Assembly (NCBI GenBank): GCA_026214975.1
Contig: JAOBSW010001090.1
Span: 1-64,000 of the forward strand
DNA: 64,000 nucleotides
Reading direction: 5' to 3'
DNA from: Gentiana macrophylla
Taxonomy: Eukaryota; Streptophyta; Magnoliopsida; Gentianales; Gentianaceae
Below, in pieces: positions 4,780 to 62,567 of this stretch (the stretch's first letter is position 1; each line of letters begins with the position of its first letter). The translations under genes and the position numbers were made by a program. The notes under the pieces were generated by a model that worked only from the letters and a program-made list of their open reading frames with translations, ran no database searches and was not told the origin of the DNA.

Positions 4780-7700
4780 CTCACTGATAGTTCCTAAGTA
4801 GTCAAGTACGGCTGGAATCTTCGCTTCTGCAGAATCATTATAAATCTGGCCACAAAATACATCAATTGTTACATTATTAAGAAAGACAATCCTGCTAATC
4901 TACAGAAAAGCGATATTTGACCAATAAAATATTGCAGTTAAAAAAGAAATGCAATTGATGGAAGCAGAAAGATCTAGAAGATCACGATTATCAAATATAG
5001 TGAAAACATACACCACCAATACTACCCAGCAAAGAATGTCAAGTCCTTATGAAATGCAGTGATCTCATATTTCCGGGGCTCTTAAATTCTCGAATATTAG
5101 AATGTACAAAAAACATGAGAAGCATGATAGAACATCAGATTTTTGATAGAAAAAAGTTGCACCGCAGGGGCGAATTAAATGAAAGTATGTTTTACAACGC
5201 AGCATCGGAATATTGCAGAATATAACCCTAAATATCTAAGACTACATTTAAGGGTTTAAGATGCATAAAATATGTTTGGAGGGGAAGATATACAGATAGC
5301 AATTGAAAATGAATGTGGATCACATCCACACGATGACAACTCTAATTCGTAGTCTTTTCAAACACTATGTTCTTGAACATGTCCATCGACCGTCGTGTTT
5401 TTAACGAAGTTTATTAGTTTAATTCATGAACAACAATCATATCACAGTTGCAAATTTGTGGCCATATTTTCAGAAAGTACGCACGTCTAGTCCTTCATTA
5501 TATTATTCTACGCACAATAAATATCATGCATGGATTGGAATGGATCAATATCATCACAAAATAAGCAGAATAAACGTGACAAGAAAACAAGGAGCATTAC
5601 ATTGCCACCCTCAGTTCCGGAGACATAAAAAATATACCTTATTAATCAAATTCTTCTGAGAAAATTTCAGCGACTCAGCTTCCTCCTTGGTCTGACAGGA
5701 TTTAATTTTGCCTTTGATGACCTCCAACTGCAAAGAAATATACCATGATTAACTTATTCAGGTTTTACTGTATTAGAAACTAAATTTCAAGATATGCCAC
5801 ACATCTAAAGCATAAGAGATGCCCATCTGAAGGGAAGAGATGACTCGTTATAAACTAAGGAGGGGGCAAATAGCCTCAAAAACATTGAAGCACTATTTGC
5901 TGAATATGTGGGCATAATGACAATACACTTCTCAGAAAGAAGAAAACGAGAAATATGAAAGAGTAACAAATGGTAAAGGAAATCCATATCTTAGAAGACA
6001 AACCAGAAGTGTTTCCATGCCCAGGAAAACTCAAACCACATAGCGAAATATCTATTGGTTATTAAAGGCAATGCAATTTAACAAAGTGAACTAACCTCGC
6101 GGAATAAGGCATTGATAGGTCTCATCTCCTTTTCACCTAAATCCATGAACACCTGAAAGAGGAAGAATATTAAGACTAAGCTCAATGCAATAAAAAGAGC
6201 TACAATAAACAGCAATAACCTTCAGACTAGATAATGCAACATCAAGGCTGAGGGAATATAGGAAGTTAACGGAAGTTGATTGTACTAATTATACTATACA
6301 ATGCCTCATTTTTCAACGACAATTAAGCCTCATCCTACTACATGAGATCAGCTATATGAATCCTTTGACACTACTGCGCTTTATCACAATAATAACCTGT
6401 CAATGCATGAGAACGTGGACTTCCTTTTTCTAAATGTTCATCAGAACAACTTCTTTGCCCCTCCCCCCCCTTTATTTCAGTATGAACGTGTATAAGATCT
6501 CACACTCACATAACTAAACACGTGCATCTCAATTGTGCACGCACATGATAAAACCATCTCAGAGAGGTTTTTAACTCGATTGGCATGATTTCCACGAAAA
6601 GTGAGCTACTTTGTGCTGGAGCTTCTGAGGTGAAAAAACAGCAGCTCACTAATCCGCTGGGAGTTAATTTACGAGTTCTTCCTATTTGATACTCGGAAGT
6701 GCCATCGATTTCTAAAATACTTTCAGTTTCTCAATGCCAAGTGCTGGTGGATAAGGTTAGAAGTAGAGTCTTGACTTGGGCAAATATCAGAAGATTTCAT
6801 ATGAAGGCAGAATACAACTTATTAAAACTGTTCTATTAGCCATGTCTATCTATTGGGCAGTTATGCTCATTTTTACAGAGGAAATTTAAAAGTACTAAAA
6901 CAATTGAACACAGTGGAGGTGCACTTAATTCCCACAAAGATAAGGTGAGTTGGGCTGAGGTAAGTAATCCAGAGGAGTCAGGGGATGTGGGCTTCTATAT
7001 TCAGTTCATACATACTTTCCACTGAATCCACAGATCACCATAAAACGATACCTGTTGCCTTCGCTTCATAGGCAGCTCAGAAAGAACATCTTTTGAGTCT
7101 ACGGATCATCACAGTTGCTTTCATCAAGTTATGAAGCTGTCGTGATTACTTGCACCCTGGTAGACTCCAAACACACCCTAACAGAGTAACGAGGAAGAAT
7201 CTATAAATCTGATACCCTTCAAAAATAGAATCTATAAATCTGATACCCTTCAAAAATAAATGAGATGTAGTAGAGCAAAAAAAAAAAAAATAGTATATTT
7301 ACTTACACCCTTGCAGTATCGATTTCCGTATTCATGGACATTTTTATACACATCAGGGTATAACGCCTCCAGCTGTGAAGTATACTTTTAGAGCCAGTGA
7401 AATTAAAAAATGATACAAAAATGGATGTTAAAATAAAGCCTGTTCCTCTCAAAAAAACAAAAAAAACCTGTTTGAATAGTTCTATCGGTCTTGATAAAGC
7501 AGGAGTTCCACTCAACAAGATCACGTATTGGGCACGCTACAATCATCACAGTGTTAAATTATGACCTTGGGCAAAGGGAGAGAGAGAAAGAGACATGGGA
7601 GGAAGGAGGAATCGAGGGGGATAGAGAAGGAAACCTGTAAAATGGGAATAGATGCTGTTGTCCTTTTTGCTTGAGCGTTTTTCAAGAAATGTGATTCATC

Positions 7701-22546: not shown

Positions 22547-24843
22547 ATGGAAACATCAAATGCATTGCTTCGGTCTTGTTTGAGCTTTGGATTACAGATG
22601 CCAATTGTTCGTTCCCACTATTGCTCAATCTCTTGGGTCTCATCAGCTGCGGTCAAGGTATTGCTGTTCAATTATCTATTATTGATTTGATTGTACAGTG
22701 ATTAAGTATTTGTAGAAATGCCTGACTGATTGAAAGTAGCGGATTATTCATCAATGATGTGTTAGCATTGTTTTTCAATTGTGAAATTCAAAATTGGTGT
22801 GTTTCCGTTGCATTCCTATCAGAATTCAAGAGAATATGAATGATTGCAGTCGTTTAGATTATTGAATTTGAGTATTTTACCTATAAAGTGATATGTATTA
22901 TGGCTGGTTTATTGTGAATATGATGAAGATTCAATGTGATAAGGCTTAATCCAAAGATGTTTTGTCATGCTGCTTTTTGAAATTTAGTTGTATTCATGTT
23001 AAATGACAATGTTTTAGGCTGGTGTGTGGACCTAAGACAACCTTACGCATTTATCTGGGTTTCAGTATCAGTCGGTTTAAGAGACTGGAACTAGGCAGAC
23101 ATTTTGCTATTTAGATTATCACCTCAAATTCTTATGAGTAATTGCCTGATCCCCTGTTAAATCATCCAGGTTTGGAAGTTTGAGATTATGTTATTAGACA
23201 CACAGACTTGAATCATGAGTGATTTGCACATCACACATCTTGGAAAAAAAAGTGCATTTGTTAGTTTAAGCATGCCTTTCTGGTTGGGTATTTTTCATGA
23301 AGGGTGATGAACATGTTACTTGACATCATCTTTCGGTATAAATCAGTCTGCTAGAGATGTAATTTCGGGTTTTTGGTTACTTCACCAAAGAAAGACCTAC
23401 TTTGGTATCGGTGAGGATCAAATCATGACGACGTGCTTGATAGAATACCCACATCTGGCCAAAATGACTGAAAACTAATTTAGAAGTACCGATGTTTATG
23501 TGGGAGTCTACTTTATCCATTTTATTAGCAATGCATCTATTGAAAATTGTCGTCTCCTTTTTGGGTGGTTTTGAGTGTGAGGGGATGTGGGGTGGTGGGT
23601 TATTCTGTGATTTCATAATGCTTTTGGATTTCTTCGATGCTATCACACCATCTTCCGAAGTCATTGATAGGATTTGAGATTATAAGAGTAGAATGCATCA
23701 TTTGCTTCTTGTAGTTTTCTATACATGAAGTTTATGCTTTTCGAATGTAGTTCTTGAATACAAATACATGAGAGATTGTCTTGTGCTCAGTGCTGGTTTT
23801 GTGGCTAGCTTCATTCAACCCCGTGTGCATCGTGGTGAGTGTATGAAGAAAAAGTTAGGTCAATTTAAAATCGGGTTTTGTTCCCTTATACAAAAATATT
23901 GGCAGCAGGAAAGTATGTTGGTTTGGTTGTGGTTTCTTAGCCTAAGATGGTACACCGGTGATTGAAGGCTTTAGTTTCAACTTCTAAAATGCAGAATTAT
24001 ACTTGCTATGTTTTCCGAACAAAAGAGTGAGAAACAAAGAAGAAACATACCGACATGTATGTGAGGAGGACCTAACAATATAGATGTGAACAATAAACTG
24101 AAAATTGAATATGTTGTCTTACCAAAGAAAACAGAGTGTTCATTTAAGTGCAAGAAAGAAGATGATCTGACCTTTAAGTTTCTTGATATGATTATTATTC
24201 TTAAATAGCTTTGCCTTAGATTATTAACCTCAAAAAAGTCCTCACTTTTTTCGAGCATCTCCCTTCGGACCTTTGGTTAAAGAATGCAGGAACGTAAAAA
24301 TCTTTAAAGTTTGTAAGTGCTGATATTATACTGATAAGATGTTTTTCTTAACTATGTCACAGCCCAAGTTAAATTTACAACGGAGAAGTGCTGAAATCCA
24401 TGGCTCTCGTCGTCTTGAATGCAGAGCATCTTCAGTTTCCAATCATCTTCTTCAATTATCTCCAATAAAGCTGCCCATATCTGATACTGCCACTTCAGGA
24501 GACCCGACAACATTGATGAAAAGGTTAACAATATTGATAGATTTAGACCCTGCAACCGCAAGAACTGCCATCACAATCCTGAGCCCATTACTTCCAGCTT
24601 TTGCTTTTCTATTCGTCGTGAGAATCGTTATGTCTTGGTACCCGAAGCTACCAGTTGGAAAGTTCCCATACGTGTTAGCGTATGCACCTACAGAGCCACT
24701 TCTTAAACCGACGAGGAAGTTGATTCCGCCTGTTGGAGGAGTTGATGTGACACCTGTAGTTTGGTTTGATTGTTAACCTTCAGAACGAAATATTGGTTGG
24801 TCCTCAAGGGCTTTTGGTCCTTTTGTCTCAACAGGTTAGTTAA
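22547..24843 (+). CDS. CCB3: CCB3/YLMG3-like YGGT-family plastid protein, frameshifted near its end
   Basis: CCB3 is a thylakoid/plastid membrane protein needed to attach haem ci to cytochrome b6 during cytochrome b6f assembly. Exon 1 is 22547-22657 (37 codons, Ser/Arg-rich and transit-peptide-like, donor AAG|GTATTG). Exon 2 is 24363-24843 (acceptor CACAG|CCC), with phase 0 on both sides. Exon 2 encodes DLDPATARTAITILSPLLP, a membrane segment around FAFLFVVRIVMSWYP, then KLPVGKFPYVLAYAPTEPLL and RKLIPPVGGVDVTPVVWF. Just after VVWF (24768) two bases appear to be missing, so the literal frame stops at TAA 24774-24776. The shifted frame continues NEILVGPQGLLVLLSQQ to a natural stop at 24841-24843. 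It may be a damaged gene or a sequence error. YLMG1/2 paralogues lack this C-terminal wording. Confidence 0.82.
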
Positions 24844-30838: not shown

Positions 30839-31516
30839 TTTCTTTCAAAGGAAGTAGCGAGAGCAAATGCTTTACGCCTCGCGTGGTGTTTACACTAGTG
30901 ATGATAGCTTTTTTGGAGGCTGTTTCTAGTAGCCAGTAGTGGCTTGATTCCACATTGTTAAGTTCTTTGTCTTGGCCTTTGCTAATAAAATGGATCGCTT
31001 CTTAAATAAAAAACTATTTGAATCATGGCTATATCTACATTTAAAAAATCAAAATGGTATTATTCTGGTGTTATCCTTTTGTTTTGTTTTATGAAACCAT
31101 CAGAATAAATGACTATGAAGAGATGAATCACTAAAGAAAAATAACTAAAAAAGCATGTCAAAGCCGAAAGAAAAAACTAGACGAAAATTCAAAGTATATA
31201 ACTTTTCTTTGGGTAAAAATAGTTTGTTTTGTATAACTCTATTTTTAATTCTTACGAAAATAAACCCGTCAAAACAGTTTGTTTTGTATACCTCTATCTT
31301 TAAGAAGATTCACTTAATTCTCACACCGATGCTAAGTTGGTTGATCGGGTATTGGAATCCCTGTTGGGAAACATATACAAAGCTAGGGAGAACTTTCAAT
31401 TCTCGTCAACGGTTGTGCACCGGTTGCTTATCAGATCGGTGTATTAGGATAGAGAGGATGAGCTTAGATTTCGTTTCGAAGATAGTGTATGTCGTTTCGG
31501 GAATGTAGAGTTTGCC

Positions 31517-32098
31517 TTGATCATGGGTTTATATTTCAGTGTACTAGAGCCAGACATACGGTCTGTTGAAGAGCGGAACCGTAGTAGTTTGACTGAATGC
31601 GAAAATCATGTTACTGGTGATGTTGATATGGCGATGGCTCCATTCCATGTAGAAGTAAGTCATATTACGATTGGCATGTTACAGAAGGCGTTGATGGACG
31701 CCACAAATGCCGAGATTGCATATAAACTTGGCCTGATACATTTGATTGAGTCAGTTTTGCATGGTAAAGCATTGAATTCAAACGTCTCTCCTTTTGTATT
31801 TCACATGGTGGACGATATACCGCGTTTTCTCCATTATTCATGGGGTTCATATTTTTGGGACATTACATTGAAGAACTTTAAGGGGAAACGAGACGGATTG
31901 ACGAGTCATATAGGTAGAAAGATCAAACCGATGAAAGTCGTTGCATGTATGATTAACGCATTTTTAGTGTGGGCCTACGAGACACAAACAAAATTCAAAC
32001 ATATTTGGAGCCTAAGATGGAGACCGCGTTGCAAAAATATATTGAGCACGGTAAATTTCTCACTGTTAAGCCTATATCCTCTTACGAGTTTTGGGTGA
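31517..32098 (+). pseudogene. Left-arm DUF1985-like ORF
   Basis: This 193-codon frame reads IAYKLGLIHLIESVLHGKAL, then FVFHMVDDIPRFLHYSWGSY and WDITLKNFKGK, the pattern of DUF1985 (found in MULE-borne plant genes, often with Ulp1-like proteases). The preceding bases continue the domain in another frame. It ends at a stop before the SWIM segment, which resumes at 31969-32240 in a different frame. A transposon relic, not a host gene. Confidence 0.6.
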
Positions 32099-32305
32099 CT
32101 GGCTCGAAAAAGAAGAAACCTAAAGTGGATCTAGATAAGATGACATGGGATTGCCGGAAGCTCAACATAAACGGAATACCGTGTGAGCATGCGTACGCTG
32201 CATTAGCCGATCGTCAATCCACTTTAGCTGATCGTCAATTCAACATCCGGCAATCCCATGTCATCTTATCTAAATCCATTTTAGATTTCTTCGTTTTCGA
32301 GCCCG

Positions 32306-32815
32306 TCACCCAAAACTCGTAAGAGGATATAGGCTTAGCAGTGAGATATCTACCGCGCTCAATATATTTTTACTACACAGCCTCCATCTTAGGCACCAAA
32401 TATGTTTGAATTTTGTTTGCATCTTATAGGCCCACACAAAAAATGCGTTAAACATACATGCAACGACTTTCATTGGTTTGATCTTTCTACCTATACGACT
32501 CGTCAGTCCGTCTCGTTTCCCCTTTAAGTTCTTCAATGTAATGTCCCAAAAATATAAACCCCATGAATAATGGAGAAAACGCGGTATATTATCCACCATG
32601 TGAAATACAAAAGGAGAGACGTTTGAATTCAACGTCTTCCCATGCAAAACTGACTCAATCAAATATATCAGGCCAAGTTTATATACAATCTCGGCATCTG
32701 TGGTGTCCATCAATGCCTTCTGTAACATACCAATCGTAATAGGGCTTACTTCTACATGGAATGGAGCCATCGCCATATCAATATCACCAGTAACATGATT
32801 TTCGCATTCAATCAA
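32306..32815 (-). pseudogene. Right-arm DUF1985-like ORF
   Basis: This 169-codon minus-strand frame is about 90% identical to the left-arm frame (VYKLGLIYLIESVLHGKTL, FHMVDNIPRFLHYSWGLYF). That both arms stay open over 160 codons suggests a fairly recent common source. Confidence 0.6.
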
Positions 32816-33103
32816 ACTACTACGTTCTGCTCTTCAACAGACCGTATGTTTGGCTTTAAAACACCGAAATATAAACCCGTGATCAAGGCAAACTCTACCC
32901 TCCCGAAACGACATACACTGTTTCCGAAAAGAAATCTAAGCTCATCCTCTCTATCCGAATACACCGATCTGATAAGCAACTGGTGCACAACCGTTTACTA
33001 GAATTGAAAGTTCTCCATAACTTTGTATATGTTTCCCAATCGGGATTCCAATACCCGATCAACCAACTTGGCATCGGTGTGAGAATTAAGTGAATCTATA
33101 AAG

Positions 33104-48880: not shown

Positions 48881-49534
48881 TTTATAACTTTTTATCATTT
48901 TTACTTGATTTTTATAGTATTTAGATTTATTCATAACTATTAATATTTTATAAGATTATCGTTATAATTACTTATATTTTATATAAAAAGAGTCGATAAT
49001 GTATATAAAACATCGTAATTTTTATCATATAAATGTTATACATCATGAAGTCGTTTTGTTAGTTTATGTTGTTTTATTAGGTTGTATTTTTTTGTTTCTA
49101 TTTGAATCAATTGATTTTGTGAATGCTCATTTGGCTGATTCTGTAAGAGGATATGGCCTTCTAAGAAGCTATGATCTTTGTAAATGTCCATTTGGACATG
49201 AAATATTTCGATTTGGTTCATATACAGTTGGTTGCGATTTGTATTGAGTTGTGCCAACCCAAGTTCATGGGATATTTGTGAGTAGAAAATTAGCAGAGAG
49301 ACTTACTTTATCCAAGATGAATAAAGTTGTTTTATTTGATTCAAGATGAATTATAAATGATTCATAACCAAACACATTATAATTTTGGTGAATGGTCATT
49401 TATGGAACATGGTTGCTCAAGGCTGTTTTTGCTGGGAAAATCGGAAGCAGATTATTGATGTTTCTATTCAGTTCACTTAATTTAGGAAGCCCTATTACAG
49501 TTGAATATAACCATGTGCTACAATCGTTTTGCAG

Positions 49535-50434
49535 TGATTACCTTTTTAAGCTTTTGCTAATTGGGGACTCCGGTGTTGGCAAATCTTGACTTCTTCTGAG
49601 ATTTGTTGTAAGTTCTCTATACTCATTATTCAATTTGGGTGGTCACTTCCTTGTTATGAAATCGTCTCATCTCAGATTCTGTGATTATATCATTATAAGA
49701 AGCAAAAGATATACATTTTGTAGTTTCCTTTTCATTTTTGGGCATGTTTTCTTTTTTACGTCCTTACCAGGCTTTATAATGTGTTTAGGATGACTCATAT
49801 CTGGAGAGCTACATAAGCACCATTGGCGTGGACTTTGTTAGTACTTTGTTCTTTTCTTTAACGTGCTTCATTTTTCGAACATGGGACACCGCTGGACAAG
49901 AGCGTTTTAGGACTATTACTAGCAGCTACTATCGTGGTGGTCATGGCATTATTGTTAGCATCGCCTTTTTCTCATATGTGTGGAAAATGTTATCTAATGA
50001 GCTTTGTAATTGTGTGTGTTTTATATACTGATCTGTTGATCATTTCACATATTTACAAGTGGTGTATGATATCACTGATCAAGAGAGTTTCAATAACGTT
50101 AAGCAATGGCAGAATGAAATTAATAGATATGCAAGTGATAATGTAAACAAGCTTCTTGTTGGCAACGAAAGTGATCTTGAATCCCAAAGAGTCGTTTCCT
50201 ACGACACCGCAAAGGTAGTTCCTAATCCAGTTTGGTCCTTGTAGTTTTAATGTGTACAATTTACTCCCTGTATTTTTGACATTTATGTGTACTTCCTCTA
50301 TACCCATGTCCGGTTGTTTTCTTTCTCAGGCATTTGCAGATGAAATCGGGATTCCTTTCATGGAAGCAGGTGCAACCGATTACCGTTGCTGTGCTACTGA
50401 AGAACAACCTGGATGGAGCAAAGCGTGTAATTGA
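49535..50434 (+). pseudogene. Rab1/RABD2-type small GTPase pseudogene with introns
   Basis: Exon-like blocks: 49535-49607 (DYLFKLLLIGDSGVGKS then TGA, LLLRFV), 49789-49836 ([16 protein letters not shown]), about 49880-49953 ([20 protein letters not shown]), 50060-50214 ([16 protein letters not shown]..) and 50330-50434 (AFADEIGIPFMEAGATD). The wording is that of Rab1/RABD2, which acts in ER-to-Golgi transport. The P-loop is followed by a stop where Cys is expected. The exon for KIRTVEQDGKTIKLQI is missing. The guanine-specificity NKxD motif reads NESD, and the C-terminal half with prenylated cysteines has decayed. Retained introns mean a DNA duplicate, not a processed copy. Confidence 0.9.
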
Positions 50435-50940
50435 GTATGAGCATTAGCAGTAAGCATTAGTTTTAGAATCTGCTTTGCTGGTGTCTTGCATCTTGTCTTA
50501 TTCTCTATTTTGCCAGGTTAAGGCTGCTTTGTAGAATTTCTGGTTTGCGTTTCAGTTTCGGGATTGCTTGTCTATCTGGTTTAAGTTCAGGTCTGCCATT
50601 TGTTTTGCTAGGTAAACCGCAAAACATATGTTTTGCTGTAGGTCTGGAAAATTGTCAATACGATGGTTTAATTCGTAGTCAGTTCAATTTAATTCTTCGT
50701 TTGCATTCCATTGGTAGCAGCAAAAAAGCATATGTCCTTTATAAAATGAAAATCATTTTGATTTGTGCTGGTACAACTATGTCTAGAGTTGTGTACGTAG
50801 TTACGGCTATCTATGTATAAATCATATTTTTACAGACCAGGTCTATCAATCGAATCGAATGTATGTATACGTAGCTTCCTCAAAAGCGAGGGCAAAAACG
50901 TGCAGAGCACGTTGCCGCCACTAGTATATATCTATATATG

Positions 50941-51205: not shown

Positions 51206-52455
51206 TATACACTTTATCCCTTAAATTTTTTTTGACATAACTAATCCCGTGAAATGTGTAGAAAAAGAAGAAAAAAAAAGTTAAGTGGTTAATCAAAGCA
51301 AAACGGATTAACTCTTAAAAAAATATTTAGAAAAGGGACCCGGTCAAACTAAAGTTGAAGGATACGAATAGATCACAAATTTTGAGTATAAAATGAGATT
51401 ATTTTCTCTATTACCTCCATTATTTAAATAAACATATACTCATTAGATTATAAAAAAGACCACCATCTTTTTTTTTTCTATTTTATTTTAGAATTTTCTG
51501 TATTTTTGTTGATGTCATTTTCTCCATAAACGACAACGTTTTTGGTGATTTATTCAATGCAACTTTGGAGTTTGGACTACAAGGACTTCATGAGCCTTTA
51601 TTAAGGGTTAAATCTTAATCACGAGTGTCCCACGTACTCCCTCGTCTACTGGAATAAGTGTAGAGAGTTAATCGCAGAACCTAACGACTCGAGTTATGAG
51701 TTGCTTTATTATCTAGTAAACCGAAAGAAGTTTCATCTATTTGTGGGGTTTGAACCTTCACTTTCCAGTTTACGGTCCAGCTGTCCTTAAAAGACACCTA
51801 AATAAATAATATGTCGATATCATGTTATCAACAAGTTGAGGAACTTTTCAGTAATATATATAACAATTAACGCAATGAATGAAACAATCTGATACGCTGG
51901 AAAAATGCTAATTCAGCAAAACACTTACAGCAAAATTATAAAATGCATTTTTACATTATTCAATATAATACAACCACATTAATTAATATGTCTCACACCA
52001 TAATTAAAAATGTAAAATTTTGTTATGAAACTTTGTTGTGTAACGAAATCTCATTAAATAAATGTCATATCATTAGAGTTCTTGTTACCATGTTAGCATG
52101 GAAAATTCTAATATGAAGACTCCCCCATAGAGAATAACCCATGCGGGAGATTCTTGATCAGTCCACATGGGTTACTCTCCATGGTAGAACTTCCCTGTTA
52201 GAGTATTCACTATAGTCACAAGAAAAATAAACACAAAAGTGATAAAAAAAAAACTGACAATTTAATGGTAGTTTCTTCCAATAAAAAGCTGACACAAAAA
52301 AATATCAATAATATATTTTAAGCATCAAAATAAATGAATTAACAGGTTTTATAATTATTATTTTTTTATTTTGTAAAAGTGAAAAAGAATTAAATATCAA
52401 TTTATTTGCATATGGTGTGAAGATGAATGTGGACAGAGTATGAAACACCGACATT
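51206..52455. other. AT-rich intergenic, no feature recognised
   Basis: Short frames only. An internal palindrome-like pair, GAATAACCCATGCGGGAG / CATGGGTTACTCTCCATGG, lies near 52130-52190. Confidence 0.4.
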
Positions 52456-52910
52456 TCAATCTGGGCACCGTGCGCCGCGCGTATCCAACATATTTCCGAC
52501 ACGACACGCGACCGACACGTGTCTGACATGTGTCGGCTGATTAAAGTAATATTATTTAAAAATATCCGACACGGCGCCGACACTCCCCGACACTCTTGAA
52601 CCCAATTTTTCAATTTGGTTTTTTTTTTCCCTTTCTTTTTTTAAGTTTTCTTCAATGAAAACATTAAAATACACGATATCCATCTTGATTGTAATTTAAT
52701 AAATAATAAGCTGTATTAAGTTTATACGTTGCTTTTTGATAAACAACCATTTTTACGTAATATTTTGAAAGTCAATCACGATTTTGTTTTTACTTTTGGT
52801 ACCGTATAAAGATCGAATATCTATTGTTGATATTCGTTGAGTTTATGTATTACGTATCTTATTTTGTCTAGTTTTTTTCAGATTTTTATGATTTTTAATA
52901 AATTGAATCG

Positions 52911-52953
<43 letters not shown>

Positions 52954-52954
52954 A

Positions 52955-52994
<40 letters not shown>

Positions 52995-53472
52995 CAATCT
53001 GGGCACCGTGCGCCGCCCGTGCGTATCCAACATATTTCCGACACGACACGCGACCGACACGCCTCCGACACGTGTCTGACATGTGTCGGCTGATTAAAAT
53101 AATATTATTTAAAAATATCCGACACGGCGCCGACACTCCCCGACACTCTTGAACCCAATTTTTTAATTTGGTTTTTTTTCTTTATTTATTTAAGTTTTCT
53201 TCAATGAAAACATTAAAATACACGATATCCATCTTGATTGTAATTTAATAAATAATAAGCTGTATTAAGTTTATACGTTACTTTTTGATAAACAACCATT
53301 TTTACGTAATATTTTAAAAGTCAATCACGATTTTGTTTTTACTTTTGGTACCGTATAAAGATCGAATATCTATTGTTGATATTCGTTGAGTTTATGTATT
53401 ACGTATCTTATTTTGTCTAGTTTTTTTTCCAGATTTTTATGATTTTTAATAAATTGAATCATTTTTTACATA

Positions 53473-53520
<48 letters not shown>

Positions 53521-53530
53521 AATATATACA
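52456..53530. repeat. 538-bp tandem duplication ending in (AC)n tracts
   Basis: 52456-52993 and 52994-about 53530 are nearly identical by eye. Both open TCAATCTGGGCACCGTGCGC, pass through CCGACACG-rich sequence and end in CA microsatellites split by TATA. The differences are small indels and a few substitutions. Confidence 0.92.
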
Positions 53531-53592
53531 CACACACACACACACACATATATCCGTGTCGTGTCGTACGGCGTATCCGTGATCTGTGTCTG

Positions 53593-55214: not shown

Positions 55215-55466
55215 CTACTACAGACAAGTATGTCGAAAAGAAAATCAGAATAGATGTGAAAAGTAGTTCTTTTATTGATTGATTAAACAAATGGTAGAAT
55301 ACAACCAATATTTATAGTGAAACTCTAGTCTAAATGATAAAGATAGACAAATATTAAAAATGACTAAAGATAAACTAAACATTTAAATTTAACTATAACT
55401 ATTTGACTAATTTATTAATTTTATCATCAACTTTATCACTTATGTGGTTTTATCTTCTAATACCCT
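55215..55466 (-). repeat. Copia-like LTR, minus orientation
   Basis: On the minus strand a purine tract in TTTGAGGGAGGG is followed by TATTAGAAGATAAAACC and about 250 bp ending CTGATTTTCTTTTCGACA. The second half reappears in plus orientation at 56230-56356. Confidence 0.6.
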
Positions 55467-55515
55467 CCCTCAAACGAGGTCGGGTTTGGAGGCTGAGTTT
55501 GTTTTGGTATAATTT

Positions 55516-55730
55516 GGAGGGCATCTCCACTCCGGCAGGTCTTTCGGAGTCCATTGGTTGTTGTGTTTTGGAGGGCATCTCCACCCCGGATGTTTTTCCG
55601 GAGTCCAGTAGTTGTTGTGTTTTGGAGGGCATCTCCTCTCCGGTTGTGCTTCCGAAGTCCATAGTTGTGATTTTTGGAGGGCATCTCCACTCTGGTCGGT
55701 TGTTCTTCCGAAGTCTATAGTTGTGATTTT
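55516..55730. repeat. Four tandem copies of a 52-54-bp unit
   Basis: Units start at 55516, 55570, 55624 and 55676, each opening GGAGGGCATCTCC and containing TTCCGGAGTCCA-like text. On the minus strand the first three are in frame (54 bp is 18 codons). They lie just inside the purine tract of the adjacent LTR, and one related unit lies inverted at about 57065-57115. Confidence 0.88.
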
Positions 55731-55916
55731 TTACTGCATCGGCGCACGTAGTTCCGGCTCTTCCGATATCTGTTTTTTTTTTTGTTTTTGGATTGTGATA
55801 TCAGCCTCCAATTGTTTCGGATTGGATCTATCTCGTTCCTGCAAAAAAGAGATAACTAATGCCAAAAGGATAAAATTGATGATATATATGTAGCAAAAAA
55901 AAACTGGACGTAGTTG

Positions 55917-55918
<2 letters not shown>

Positions 55919-55959
<41 letters not shown>
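55919..55959. repeat. Poly(T) tract
   Basis: About 41 T, close to other A/T homopolymers (56428, 56680). These are likely retroposon tails or slippage products. Confidence 0.85.
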
Positions 55960-56229
55960 CGGGGTGTGGGAGAATGGCTGATGCTAAGATTATTTATTTA
56001 TTGTAAATAACAACTAATATTCAGAAAAAATGTAGATTCATAGGGATAGTTGGACGAGGTATGCTGGATTAAATAAGGGTAAAACATGAAGGATTTTTTA
56101 TTTTTATTTTTATTTTTAGAGTGGCTGGAATGATGCAAACAATGGGAATGACGCAGAGACGGGATTAAGGAGATGAACATGGTAATTCTAGTGGCTGGGA
56201 CTGAATCTTATCACAAAAAAAGTATCAAA

Positions 56230-56356
56230 CGATGAATGCATAAGGCATGTTGAATTTTAGACAAGAGTTTCACTATAAATATTGGTTGTATTCTACCATT
56301 TGTTTAATCAATTAATAAAAGAACTACTTTTCACATCTATTCTGATTTTCTTTATA
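56230..56356 (+). repeat. 3' part of a copia-like LTR, plus orientation
   Basis: CAAGAGTTTCACTATAAATA to CTGATTTTCTTTATA matches the minus-strand LTR at 55215-55466. It is followed by GTATCGGAAGCGAGG, which resembles a primer-binding site. Confidence 0.65.
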
Positions 56357-57156
56357 GTATCGGAAGCGAGGAGGCGAGGTTCAATGGCTTAATGCGTTGG
56401 TGACCCGCCCGCCTGTTCTTCCGCTTGAAAAAAAAAAAAAAAAACGTGTCTGCATTTTGTATTTCCTTTTCTTATGCATTCATCATTTAGCACTTTTTTT
56501 ACAATAAAACAAGCAGCCATCGTCCATTCATCTTTTGATTTTTATTTTTATTTTTTCATTCCAGTCTTTTATATCTCAAAAAGGAAAAAAAAAAAAAATT
56601 TAAAAAATTCTTATGCTCGTCGAACTTAAATTGCAGTCTATTGTTTGTTCCATGTAGTCTGCATCCAGTCCCAAAACAAAAAAAAAAAAAAAAAAAAAAA
56701 AAAAACCAACTACGTCCAGCTTTTTCAAATAAACATGGATTGATTCCATTAATCCATCTTCCATCCATACTTTCTTACTTTATTTATTTTTATCATTAAA
56801 TAAATAAATATTTTTACATATAAAATCCACTATTTCTTTTGGCATCCATTCAATGTATATTTTCAGGTGTTCGAAAAAAAATTCAGATCCACCGCAGTAA
56901 ACACAATTGGAGGCAGATGTTACTAAAAAAAAAACGATCCAAATTTTGTTTGACTTTTGGAAGAGCCGGATTACGTGCGCCAAGAAGTTAGCTTCACAAA
57001 CCACAACAAGACTCCCGGAAGAGCCGGAAATACGTGTGCCGAGAAAGTCAAACATGCAAACTAATGGACTCCGGAACGAAAAAGAATTGCTCGATCCGGA
57101 GTGGAGATGCCCTCCACAATATCATCAAACAAACTCAGCCTCCAAACCCGGTCTCG

Positions 57157-57425
57157 TTTGAGGGGGGTAATAGAAGAGAAAATTTGAATAGATCGGATAA
57201 ATGCCAAAATAGATAATTGTTATATTGTAATCAACATAATAGTGGATAAGTGTTTGTTTATTGTTAGGATTTGAATATATTGCATTCATATCTTTAGATG
57301 ATTTTTTTTATTTTAAATTACGATTTATGCCATTTATTTCCTATAAAAAGGAGGCTTACTGTATCATTTTATTAAGACTAATAAAACAGTTATTCAGAGT
57401 ATCTTCCACTATTCTGATTTTCTTT
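57157..57425 (+). repeat. Related copia-like LTR, plus orientation
   Basis: It follows a purine tract (TCGTTTGAGGGGGG), begins TAATAGAAGAG and ends CTGATTTTCTTTATG. Just upstream is the same NKLSLQTR-coding segment seen inverted near 55490. Confidence 0.6.
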
Positions 57426-57805: not shown

Positions 57806-58868
57806 ATGGCCAACAATTCAGCATGCATTATTATTCTATTTTGCTTCATTCTCTTTACAGAGTACCAGGATCAAAAACTCTCCTGGGGAGGAGGTAAACA
57901 TATGGAACAATTGTCAATTAAAGTTTCTTTAGATATGAAGTAGTATAAATTAAAGGGGTTTTCTATTGTCGCTTTCGAATTACTTTGAGTACTACCGGAG
58001 GTGTAAATGAGCCGAGGTGAACTGAATTGAGATGTTTAAGTTTGTGTTTCTTAACTACACGAACGAGCCTGGTTTTGTTTGTTTTAAATAAACGCGCTAT
58101 ATTTTATATTTGAGTTGCGTTTGCCAAAATATTGCTCGAGCTCGTACCTAGGTATCCGGTAGACAACCATAACTTCAATTCCTTTGCTCTACACTTGTTT
58201 AATTAATGGTGATAATATTGTGGAATATACATTTTGAAGAAGATTTCCTTCGGTTTCTACTCAACGCACCTCATTATGACCATTTGTTTGGCTTTTTTTT
58301 TTTTTGGTTGTTGTTGTTTTGTACTATTAGGTTGTTAGGTTGTGTGTTCTGGTCCTCTAGTGGCTATCTGCCAGTTAGAGCTATCTGTTGTATTTTCCGG
58401 CATTAATCTGGTTTGATAACAATTGCTTTCGTTTTCAGGAAAAAAAGAAAATAGTTATTGAATCACAATTAATGAAATCTTTTACCTTGCAGCAAAAGCC
58501 ACTGAAAATTTCTCTCACATTCATCAGCGATTTCAAGAAAATTACGTGATGCTGACTCACAAACACTTATTACTGAAGAGGATTGCAATGCAGCCATTTG
58601 CGATCGAAGCTCTTCGGTCGATACTTGCCAATCGGGTTGTTTTTGTGGTGTAAATAAATGCTCTGTTGTTGTAGGTTCTGACTATGATGAAACCTTAACA
58701 TCTTCAAAAAAATTATTCTATGAATCTCGAAAACTTAATGATGAAAGCTTTTGCAATCAACACACTTGTGATGCTGATCCTCAAGCGGAGGACAACTGCC
58801 CAGATTACTGTTTCTGTGGTGTCGTCGTCAAATGCACTCTGCAAGAACAATCTGATCACAACATTTGA
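57806..58868 (+). CDS. Predicted secreted precursor with two tandem six-cysteine (knottin-like) domains
   Basis: Exon 1 is 57806-57893 (signal-peptide-like MANNSACIIILFCFILF; donor GAG|GTAAAC). Exon 2 is 58528-58868 (acceptor TCATCAG|CG after a pyrimidine-rich tract). The product is 142 residues. Domain 1 has Cys 49, 54, 63, 67, 69, 74 (spacing 4-8-3-1-4) and domain 2 has Cys 105, 110, 120, 124, 126, 132 (4-9-3-1-5). Both contain CFCGV and end K-C. Each follows an SRKL spacer (33-36 and 96-99), consistent with processing into two peptides. The C-x3-C-x1-C-x4/5-C tail resembles squash-type trypsin inhibitor knottins, but the first loops differ. No known family was recognised. Function is unknown: protease inhibitor, antimicrobial or signalling peptide are all possible. 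A stronger-looking acceptor 35 nt upstream would destroy the cysteine frame. Confidence 0.72.
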
Positions 58869-59492: not shown

Positions 59493-59641
59493 TGTTAAAC
59501 ACAACACAATTGGGAAAAAGATGATTCGTATATTAACAATAGTCAAGTATTTATAGTACAATGATCACCAAAAACCCTAGACCAAAAATATCGTAACTGT
59601 ACAAATATACCCTTACATATATATTGTTATATATTTCCACA
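59493..59641 (-). repeat. 3' LTR of the third copia element
   Basis: It starts TGTTAAACAC and ends TTTCCACA on the plus strand. On the minus strand the purine tract (AATTTGAGGGGGCG) directly precedes it. Confidence 0.85.
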
Positions 59642-61870: not shown

Positions 61871-62506
61871 TTAGCCCCAAAAATATTTAGGCAATTTTGC
61901 TTGAAAACGCAGGGCGCAAGCGACATTAAGAATGTGCCTATGCTTACGTTCAACATGTCCATTTTGTTGCGCTGTATCAACACAAGAAGTTTGATGCAAA
62001 ATACCCTTGGAGGCAAAAAACGATGCTAAACTCAAAAATTCCAGGCCATTATCGTTGCGAAAACACTTAATCCATTTGTCAAACTGGCGTTTGATCATTG
62101 TATAAAAACTTCCAATTAATTGGCGAACTTCATGCTTGCCAGTTAATAAATAAACCCACGTGGCACGAGAACAATCATCAACAAGAGTAAGAAAATAACG
62201 AGCATCACAACTGGAATGAAACTTGTAAGGCCCCCATATATCACAATGGACTAAATCAAATAAATCCACGGCTTTATTAAAACTCAAGGGAAACGAAGCA
62301 CGAGGCTGTTTACTCTTAAAACAAATAGAACAATCAACGTCACAAACTTTATTTGAATTATTAAGACTAGGAATGCCGGATAATGAAGATACCACGGACA
62401 TCGAAGGATGCCCTAAACGTCTATTCCATAACAAATGAGTATCAGCCACAACAACTTTGTTAACTCGAATATCTGAAGAGCACACGGACTGAAAACGGTA
62501 GACCAA
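61871..62506 (-). pseudogene. Copia GAG-pre-integrase and integrase core
   Basis: The 211-codon frame has LLWNRRLGHPSMSVVSSL, a CxxC zinc site, DLVHCDIWGPYK, TLVDDCSRATWVYLL, FRNDNGLEF and TAQQNGHVERKHRHI, including all three catalytic acids. Its N-terminus crosses the deletion junction at 62499-62506 into LTR sequence. A stop near 61868 ends it. Confidence 0.88.
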
Positions 62507-62567
62507 AAATATCGTAACTGTACAAATATACCCTTACATATATATTGTTATATATTTCCACAAAGAG

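Follow-up and report, generated by a model that had tools for sequence, protein, structure and literature searches.

Plant cysteine-rich peptides are classed by the spacing of their cysteine (Cys) residues and by precursor layout, and orphan members are common among them. Several described systems carry more than one peptide module per precursor. Cyclotide and TIPTOP precursors each contain several core peptides (PMC11253845), oat avenatide precursors contain four (PMC9127739), and the bleogen type IIb precursor is laid out as leader, pro-domain, module, hinge and module (PMC5743680). Both termini of every unit in a TIPTOP precursor carry a conserved aspartate or asparagine (Asx), and units of this kind are processed in vitro by a recombinant asparaginyl endopeptidase (PMC7101308). 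Here we describe a candidate gene at positions 57806-58868 of a 64,000-nt stretch of Gentiana macrophylla DNA (assembly GCA_026214975.1, contig JAOBSW010001090.1, positions 1 to 64,000, forward strand; hereafter the window). It encodes two homologous six-Cys modules and a linker in one precursor, the arrangement that marks tandem cysteine-rich-peptide precursors. Because plants are known to make tandem precursors, the gene probably represents a new family of cysteine-rich peptides whose precursor type is established.

When spliced in frame, segments 57806-57893 and 58528-58868 translated into 142 residues with no internal stops. The predicted intron between them (57894-58527, 634 nt, phase 1) begins with GT at 57894-57895, in a GTAAAC donor, and ends with AG at 58526-58527, in a pyrimidine-rich CAG acceptor. 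Its T content is 39%, compared with 31-32% in the exons. A two-exon precursor had been proposed in an initial annotation of this DNA, and the in-frame translation and the GT/AG borders agree with it. All parts of the gene lie on the plus strand. Exon 1 (57806-57893; 29 codons plus 1 nt) supplies the start codon and a hydrophobic leader with Cys at residues 7 and 13, and exon 2 (58528-58868, within an open frame of 58506-58868) encodes a pro-region, both six-Cys modules and the stop codon. Exon 2 contains no Met and therefore needs a start exon upstream. A CAG further upstream, ending at 58492, looks better as an acceptor but would break the frame, which the one ending at 58527 preserves. The reading frame, the two homologous modules and the repeated flanking motifs are read from the sequence itself, and the splicing is a prediction.

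Module 1 (Cys1-Cys6, residues 49-74, 58584-58661) has Cys at positions 49, 54, 63, 67, 69 and 74, with a spacing of 4-8-3-1-4. Module 2 (residues 105-132, 58752-58835) has Cys at positions 105, 110, 120, 124, 126 and 132, with a spacing of 4-9-3-1-5. Both fit C-x4-C-x8/9-C-x3-C-x1-C-x4/5-C, and the CFCGV noted previously in both modules is present in the translation. Identity between the modules is 46% or 41%, depending on the ends used, and their BLASTP comparison gave E 6e-7 (the E-value of a single comparison). An alignment as good was reached by only one of 2000 Cys-preserving shuffles and by none of 2000 full shuffles. The earlier proposal of a hydrophobic leader and two homologous six-Cys modules is thereby supported as regards the modules, and the translation bears out the leader.

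The repeat unit reaches past the Cys residues, with SRKL[RN]D ahead of each module and SD[YH][DN] behind it. Pro-motif 1, SRKLRD (residues 32-37, 58533-58550), recurs before module 2 as SRKLND (residues 96-101). The latter lies in a 30-residue linker (58662-58751) that also contains an SDYD stretch and includes Asp81, Asp83, Asn100 and Asp101. The C-terminal tail (58836-58868) contains SDHN, which pairs without gaps with the SDYD stretch behind module 1, and ends with Ile before the stop. SRKL had been described as a spacer preceding each module. It does occur before both, at residues 32 and 96; however, because the stretch from SRKL to the first Cys differs (13 versus 5 residues), it is, as judged from its placement, a shared pro-motif rather than a fixed spacer. 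The duplication looks old, because the best local DNA alignment between the two repeats covers only 14 bases, 13 of them identical.

When all six frames of the window were read, the strict six-Cys pattern was found twice, and both occurrences lie in exon 2. A looser pattern permitting Cys inside loops gave eight further matches, at about 53 kb, in frames that run through (CA)n microsatellites, and only the two exon-2 matches were left once Cys was barred from loops. Sixty order-3 Markov windows of equal length gave no match, not even when the six-Cys pattern was made much looser. A tblastn search for a further copy across the window returned, beyond the gene itself and module against module, chance-level matches only (E 3 or worse), and DNA similarity of the gene to the rest of the window was absent at E 1e-5.

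For each module, an inhibitor cystine knot (Cys1-4, 2-5, 3-6) would be the most likely fold. AlphaFold2 run on a two-sequence input gave a C-terminal knottin-like hairpin with a predicted local distance difference test (pLDDT) score of 75 (74.8) and a predicted template modelling (pTM) score of 0.41. The reported plant knottin pattern is C-X3-6-C-X5-C-X3-5-C-X1-2-C-X5-6-C (PMC11253845); loop 2 of both modules (8 and 9) and loop 5 of module 1 (4) fall outside it, and the remaining loops fit. Among described knottins, MCh-1 of Momordica charantia, spaced 4-7-3-1-9, has a proven cystine knot, and both MCh-1 and MCh-2 are reported to be inactive against trypsin (PMC3792974). MCh-1 shares a loop 1 of 4 residues and C-x3-C-F-C with the modules, and its loop 2 has 7 residues compared with 8/9 here. 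MCh-1 and MCh-2 differ from the present gene in their single-module precursor, and loop 5 of MCh-1 is hydrophobic and 9 residues long, compared with 4/5. Evasin-3, a reported knottin (PMC6643034), gave weak PDB sequence matches (E 0.34; 0.59 and 1.5). Tick evasins of this class resemble the modules in a C-x3-C-F-C-G stretch and in the knottin fold proposed for them; however, they are tick proteins with a loop 5 of 10-11 residues, and we read the likeness as convergence on the knottin hairpin.

Squash trypsin inhibitors carry a basic inhibitory residue in loop 1. The modules share the C-x3-C-x1-C-x4/5-C second half of these inhibitors, and module 1 has the same Cys1-Cys6 span as MCoTI-II (26). 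The initial annotation considered the last four Cys to be spaced as in squash inhibitors (3-1-5 in MCoTI-II), which is exact for module 2; module 1 is one residue short. The complete spacings, 4-8-3-1-4 and 4-9-3-1-5, differ from the 6-5-3-1-5 of MCoTI-II in loops 1 and 2 (4 and 8/9 here, 6 and 5 in squash inhibitors), and the modules are acidic. Loop 1 is NAAI in module 1 and NQHT in module 2, neither with Lys or Arg. In alignments with MCoTI-II, 1135 of 2000 Cys-preserving shuffles were as good for module 1 and 403 of 2000 for module 2. Because loops 1 and 2 differ, loop 1 lacks Lys/Arg and the MCoTI-II alignment is at the level of shuffles, a squash-inhibitor function is not supported by the sequence. 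The differing first loops and their missing basic residue likewise argue against trypsin inhibition.

Several other families were considered and rejected. The second part of the albumin-1 precursor is not known to be a second knottin. Loop 5 of the modules (4 and 5 residues) is shorter than that of pea albumin 1b, which is hydrophobic and has 9 residues in the alignment, although the b-type albumin-1 peptides of legumes are also encoded by a small cystine-knot gene with an intron in its coding region (PMC3601976). Hevein-like and alpha-amylase-inhibitor knottins (C-C-CC-C-C) and jasmintides (C-C-C-C-CC) have an adjacent Cys pair, which is absent from both modules. Bleogen IIb and avenatides also have this pair, at positions III-IV, even though the bleogen IIb precursor (leader, pro-region, module, linker, module; PMC5743680) is arranged like the one described here, and the hevein-like avenatide precursors have long Asx-containing linkers (PMC9127739), as here.

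Database searches gave no convincing relative. Pfam, in which HMMER filters discard most weak matches, contained no family matching exon 2 or either module up to E 10, squash inhibitors and albumin-1 included, and NCBIfam contained no convincing relative. The PDB sequences matched at E 10 or better were bulb-lectin chains, a phospholipase and Evasin-3, none of them convincing; seven bulb-lectin chains (E 0.04-0.52), whose printed alignments leave the CFCGV cysteines unpaired, and the phospholipase (E 1.8) were rejected as chance matches. Among 5.8 billion proteins, exon 2 and the module alignment found no candidate with enough shared words, and the full 142-residue model found 56 word-sharing candidates, none at E 10 or better; this search needs shared 5-residue words and would overlook fast-evolving relatives, and the plant share of the database was not established. 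In the open-access literature, no paper matched the spelled-out Cys pattern, and work on two-domain or double knottins offered no described equivalent; papers that name two, tandem or double knottins dealt, by title, with medical technique or animal toxins and not with plants. The initial annotation recognised no described family with this pairing, and none was found over Pfam, NCBIfam, PDB sequences and the 5.8 billion proteins, a comparison that left aside the nettle pain peptides (gympietides and urticatoxins); tandem cysteine-rich precursors as such, however, are known.

Taken together, the gene may encode a secreted plant cysteine-rich-peptide precursor consisting of a leader, a short pro-region, module 1, a cleavable linker and module 2, from which the modules would be freed by proteolysis after entry into the secretory pathway. 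Asx residues stand at both ends of both units. TIPTOP precursors and the squash (MCoTI-type) inhibitors of Momordica cochinchinensis likewise carry several knottin modules per precursor, and Asx residues border each TIPTOP unit as they do here (PMC7101308). Because of these Asx residues and the 30-residue linker, as in TIPTOP processing, the modules would be released as separate peptides. Asparaginyl endopeptidase would be the likeliest protease; its cuts would follow Asx on either side of a unit, in SRKL[RN]D before and SD[YH][DN] after each module. In precursors of hevein type from oat and other cereals, long cleavable linkers have 13-18 residues and short uncut ones 1-6 (PMC9127739), and by analogy the 30-residue Asp/Asn linker appears nearer the long, cleavable class. 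This would yield two acidic peptides, each about 40-46 residues long, with an isoelectric point (pI) of about 4 (4.05 calculated for each of the released units of 46 and 40 residues), and the differing first loops would give them different surfaces. With three disulfides each, the calculated masses are near 4791 and 4489 Da, and cyclic forms would be 18 Da lighter. Their likeliest role would be defence, as digestive-enzyme inhibitors or antifeedants, rather than trypsin inhibition; among plant peptides, a mealworm antifeedant assay has been reported for jasmintide jS3 (PMC6042386). We hold this reading as a whole (a tandem knottin-type precursor, Asx-processed into two acidic peptides with a probable defence role) at about even confidence.

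Several observations weigh against it. Plant knottins are generally neutral or positive (PMC11253845), in contrast to the net charges of -6 and -8 found here. The linker is longer than the cleavable ones of oat (13-18 residues) and contains Lys/Arg, a trait reported for short uncut linkers and not for long ones (PMC9127739). Judged by eye, no clean small-x-small cleavage site directly follows the hydrophobic core of the leader, and because of this we only infer its status as a signal peptide, and hence secretion. The module model, which is based on two sequences and has the pTM given above, shows a helix around Cys1 (residues 2-7), and AlphaFold2 applied to exon 2 alone gave a pLDDT of 50.0. 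Structure matches of the module model were few and non-significant, all of them small disulfide-rich peptides. In the comparison with MCh-1, 77 of 2000 shuffles did as well as module 1 in one run and 74 in another, a borderline similarity; for module 2 the counts were 527 and 502 of 2000, which is not above chance. No transcript, peptide or orthologue turned up, and a lone gene lying among fragments of transposons could be silent. Finally, defence is the default role for plant knottins and is only inferred here.

These observations bear on other explanations. The 12-Cys protein might stay uncut and act as a two-headed (bivalent) molecule, in the manner of double-headed inhibitors or of the bivalent knottins of animals. 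This would suit two homologous modules of like size in one chain as well as the Lys/Arg of the linker, which the oat study reports for uncut linkers (PMC9127739), and animal cystine-knot peptides that keep both domains exist (PMC13172734, PMC9950431). However, a linker of 30 residues that contains Asx and a recurring border motif resembles a processed repeat unit, and uncut hevein-type linkers have only 1-6 residues (PMC9127739), so that we regard the bivalent form as unlikely. As to function, fast-evolving reproductive peptides are typically acidic, divergent in their loops and devoid of detectable relatives. The acidic modules, their divergent loops and the lack of relatives would thus also fit a secreted peptide with a signalling or reproductive (hormone-like) role in place of defence. 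Against this role speaks the lack of a match to any Pfam family, and we consider it unlikely. A narrower proposal, that the gene belongs to lineage-restricted tandem acidic knottins whose TIPTOP-like Asx-bordered unit evolved independently of squash inhibitors and is perhaps cyclised by asparaginyl endopeptidase, appears quite unlikely.

The gene model itself could also be read differently. The transposon pieces on both sides, the absence of homologues in protein searches and the weak leader cleavage site would be expected of a decayed or never-expressed gene, or of an open frame arising by chance. Two intact homologous modules, in-frame splice sites and the absence of internal stops argue against this, as does the finding that none of the 60 simulated windows contained even one such motif, and this explanation seems quite unlikely. 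In addition, a different first exon might precede exon 2, leaving the mature modules unchanged. When ATGs between 55.5 and 58.4 kb were combined with two acceptors that could serve, 56 candidates resulted, which were filtered for listing, and the hydropathy ranking was restricted to donor scores of at least 5. The next distinct hydrophobic leader among the listed candidates, 58276-58330 (MTICLAFFFFGCCCFVLL), has a hydropathy of 2.74 and a donor score of 5 of 9. It is surpassed on both counts by 57806-57893, whose donor score of 6 of 9 is the joint best of the 56 (tied with two others) and whose peak hydropathy of 3.55, measured over 11 residues, is the highest in the ranked set (tied with its own later-donor variant). 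Another first exon is accordingly very unlikely.

With the tandem knottin-type precursor preferred, the gene looks like a branch of plant cysteine-rich (knottin-type) peptides not yet described. A strongly acidic, relative-less, two-module precursor with 4-8/9-3-1-4/5 spacing would add a framework to the catalogue of plant cysteine-rich peptides, and a natural pair of diverged modules would help to ask how knottin loops change function. Should the gene be just one more orphan in a crowded class, it would have little importance beyond annotation.

The window has a G+C content of 36.6% and looks like plant nuclear DNA, as judged by its copia-type elements, DUF1985 pieces and YGGT-family exon. 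Neither Rfam families (at the gathering threshold) nor tRNAs were found when the window was scanned for them, and a bacterial promoter scan, a method not meant for plants, was at chance level. A domain scan detected RVT_2, rve and gag_pre-integrs domains in two elements that we label copia-type. One is located downstream of the gene on the minus strand (about 59.6 to 62.5 kb), and its region is flanked by a 71-nt direct repeat (59571-59641 and 62492-62562; 97% identical, 2.9 kb apart). Upstream of the gene, at 55.2-57.2 kb, is an inverted-repeat element with related fragments. Its 98-nt arms (55237-56353) are 98% complementary and 921 nt apart, resembling a foldback or miniature inverted-repeat transposable element (MITE)-type element; further inverted fragments pair 55464-55535 with 57096-57167, and a 54-nt unit containing GGAGGGCATCTCC is repeated in tandem in 3-4 copies at 55504-55731. 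At 52450-53560, a segment of ~0.55 kb is apparently present twice in tandem (by eye, unaligned), with (CA)n/(TA)n microsatellites in each copy. Two DUF1985 copies in opposite orientation at 31448-32833 (plus strand, E 2.3e-13; minus strand, E 3.1e-7, below the curated cut-off), the first overlapped by an open reading frame with a SWIM finger, probably form the inverted repeat of a gene derived from a transposon. Other coding segments include what we take, by eye and from a sequence motif, to be Rab-like small GTPase exons (49530-50450) and a YGGT-family exon (24324-24776; Pfam PF02325, E 5.8e-14).
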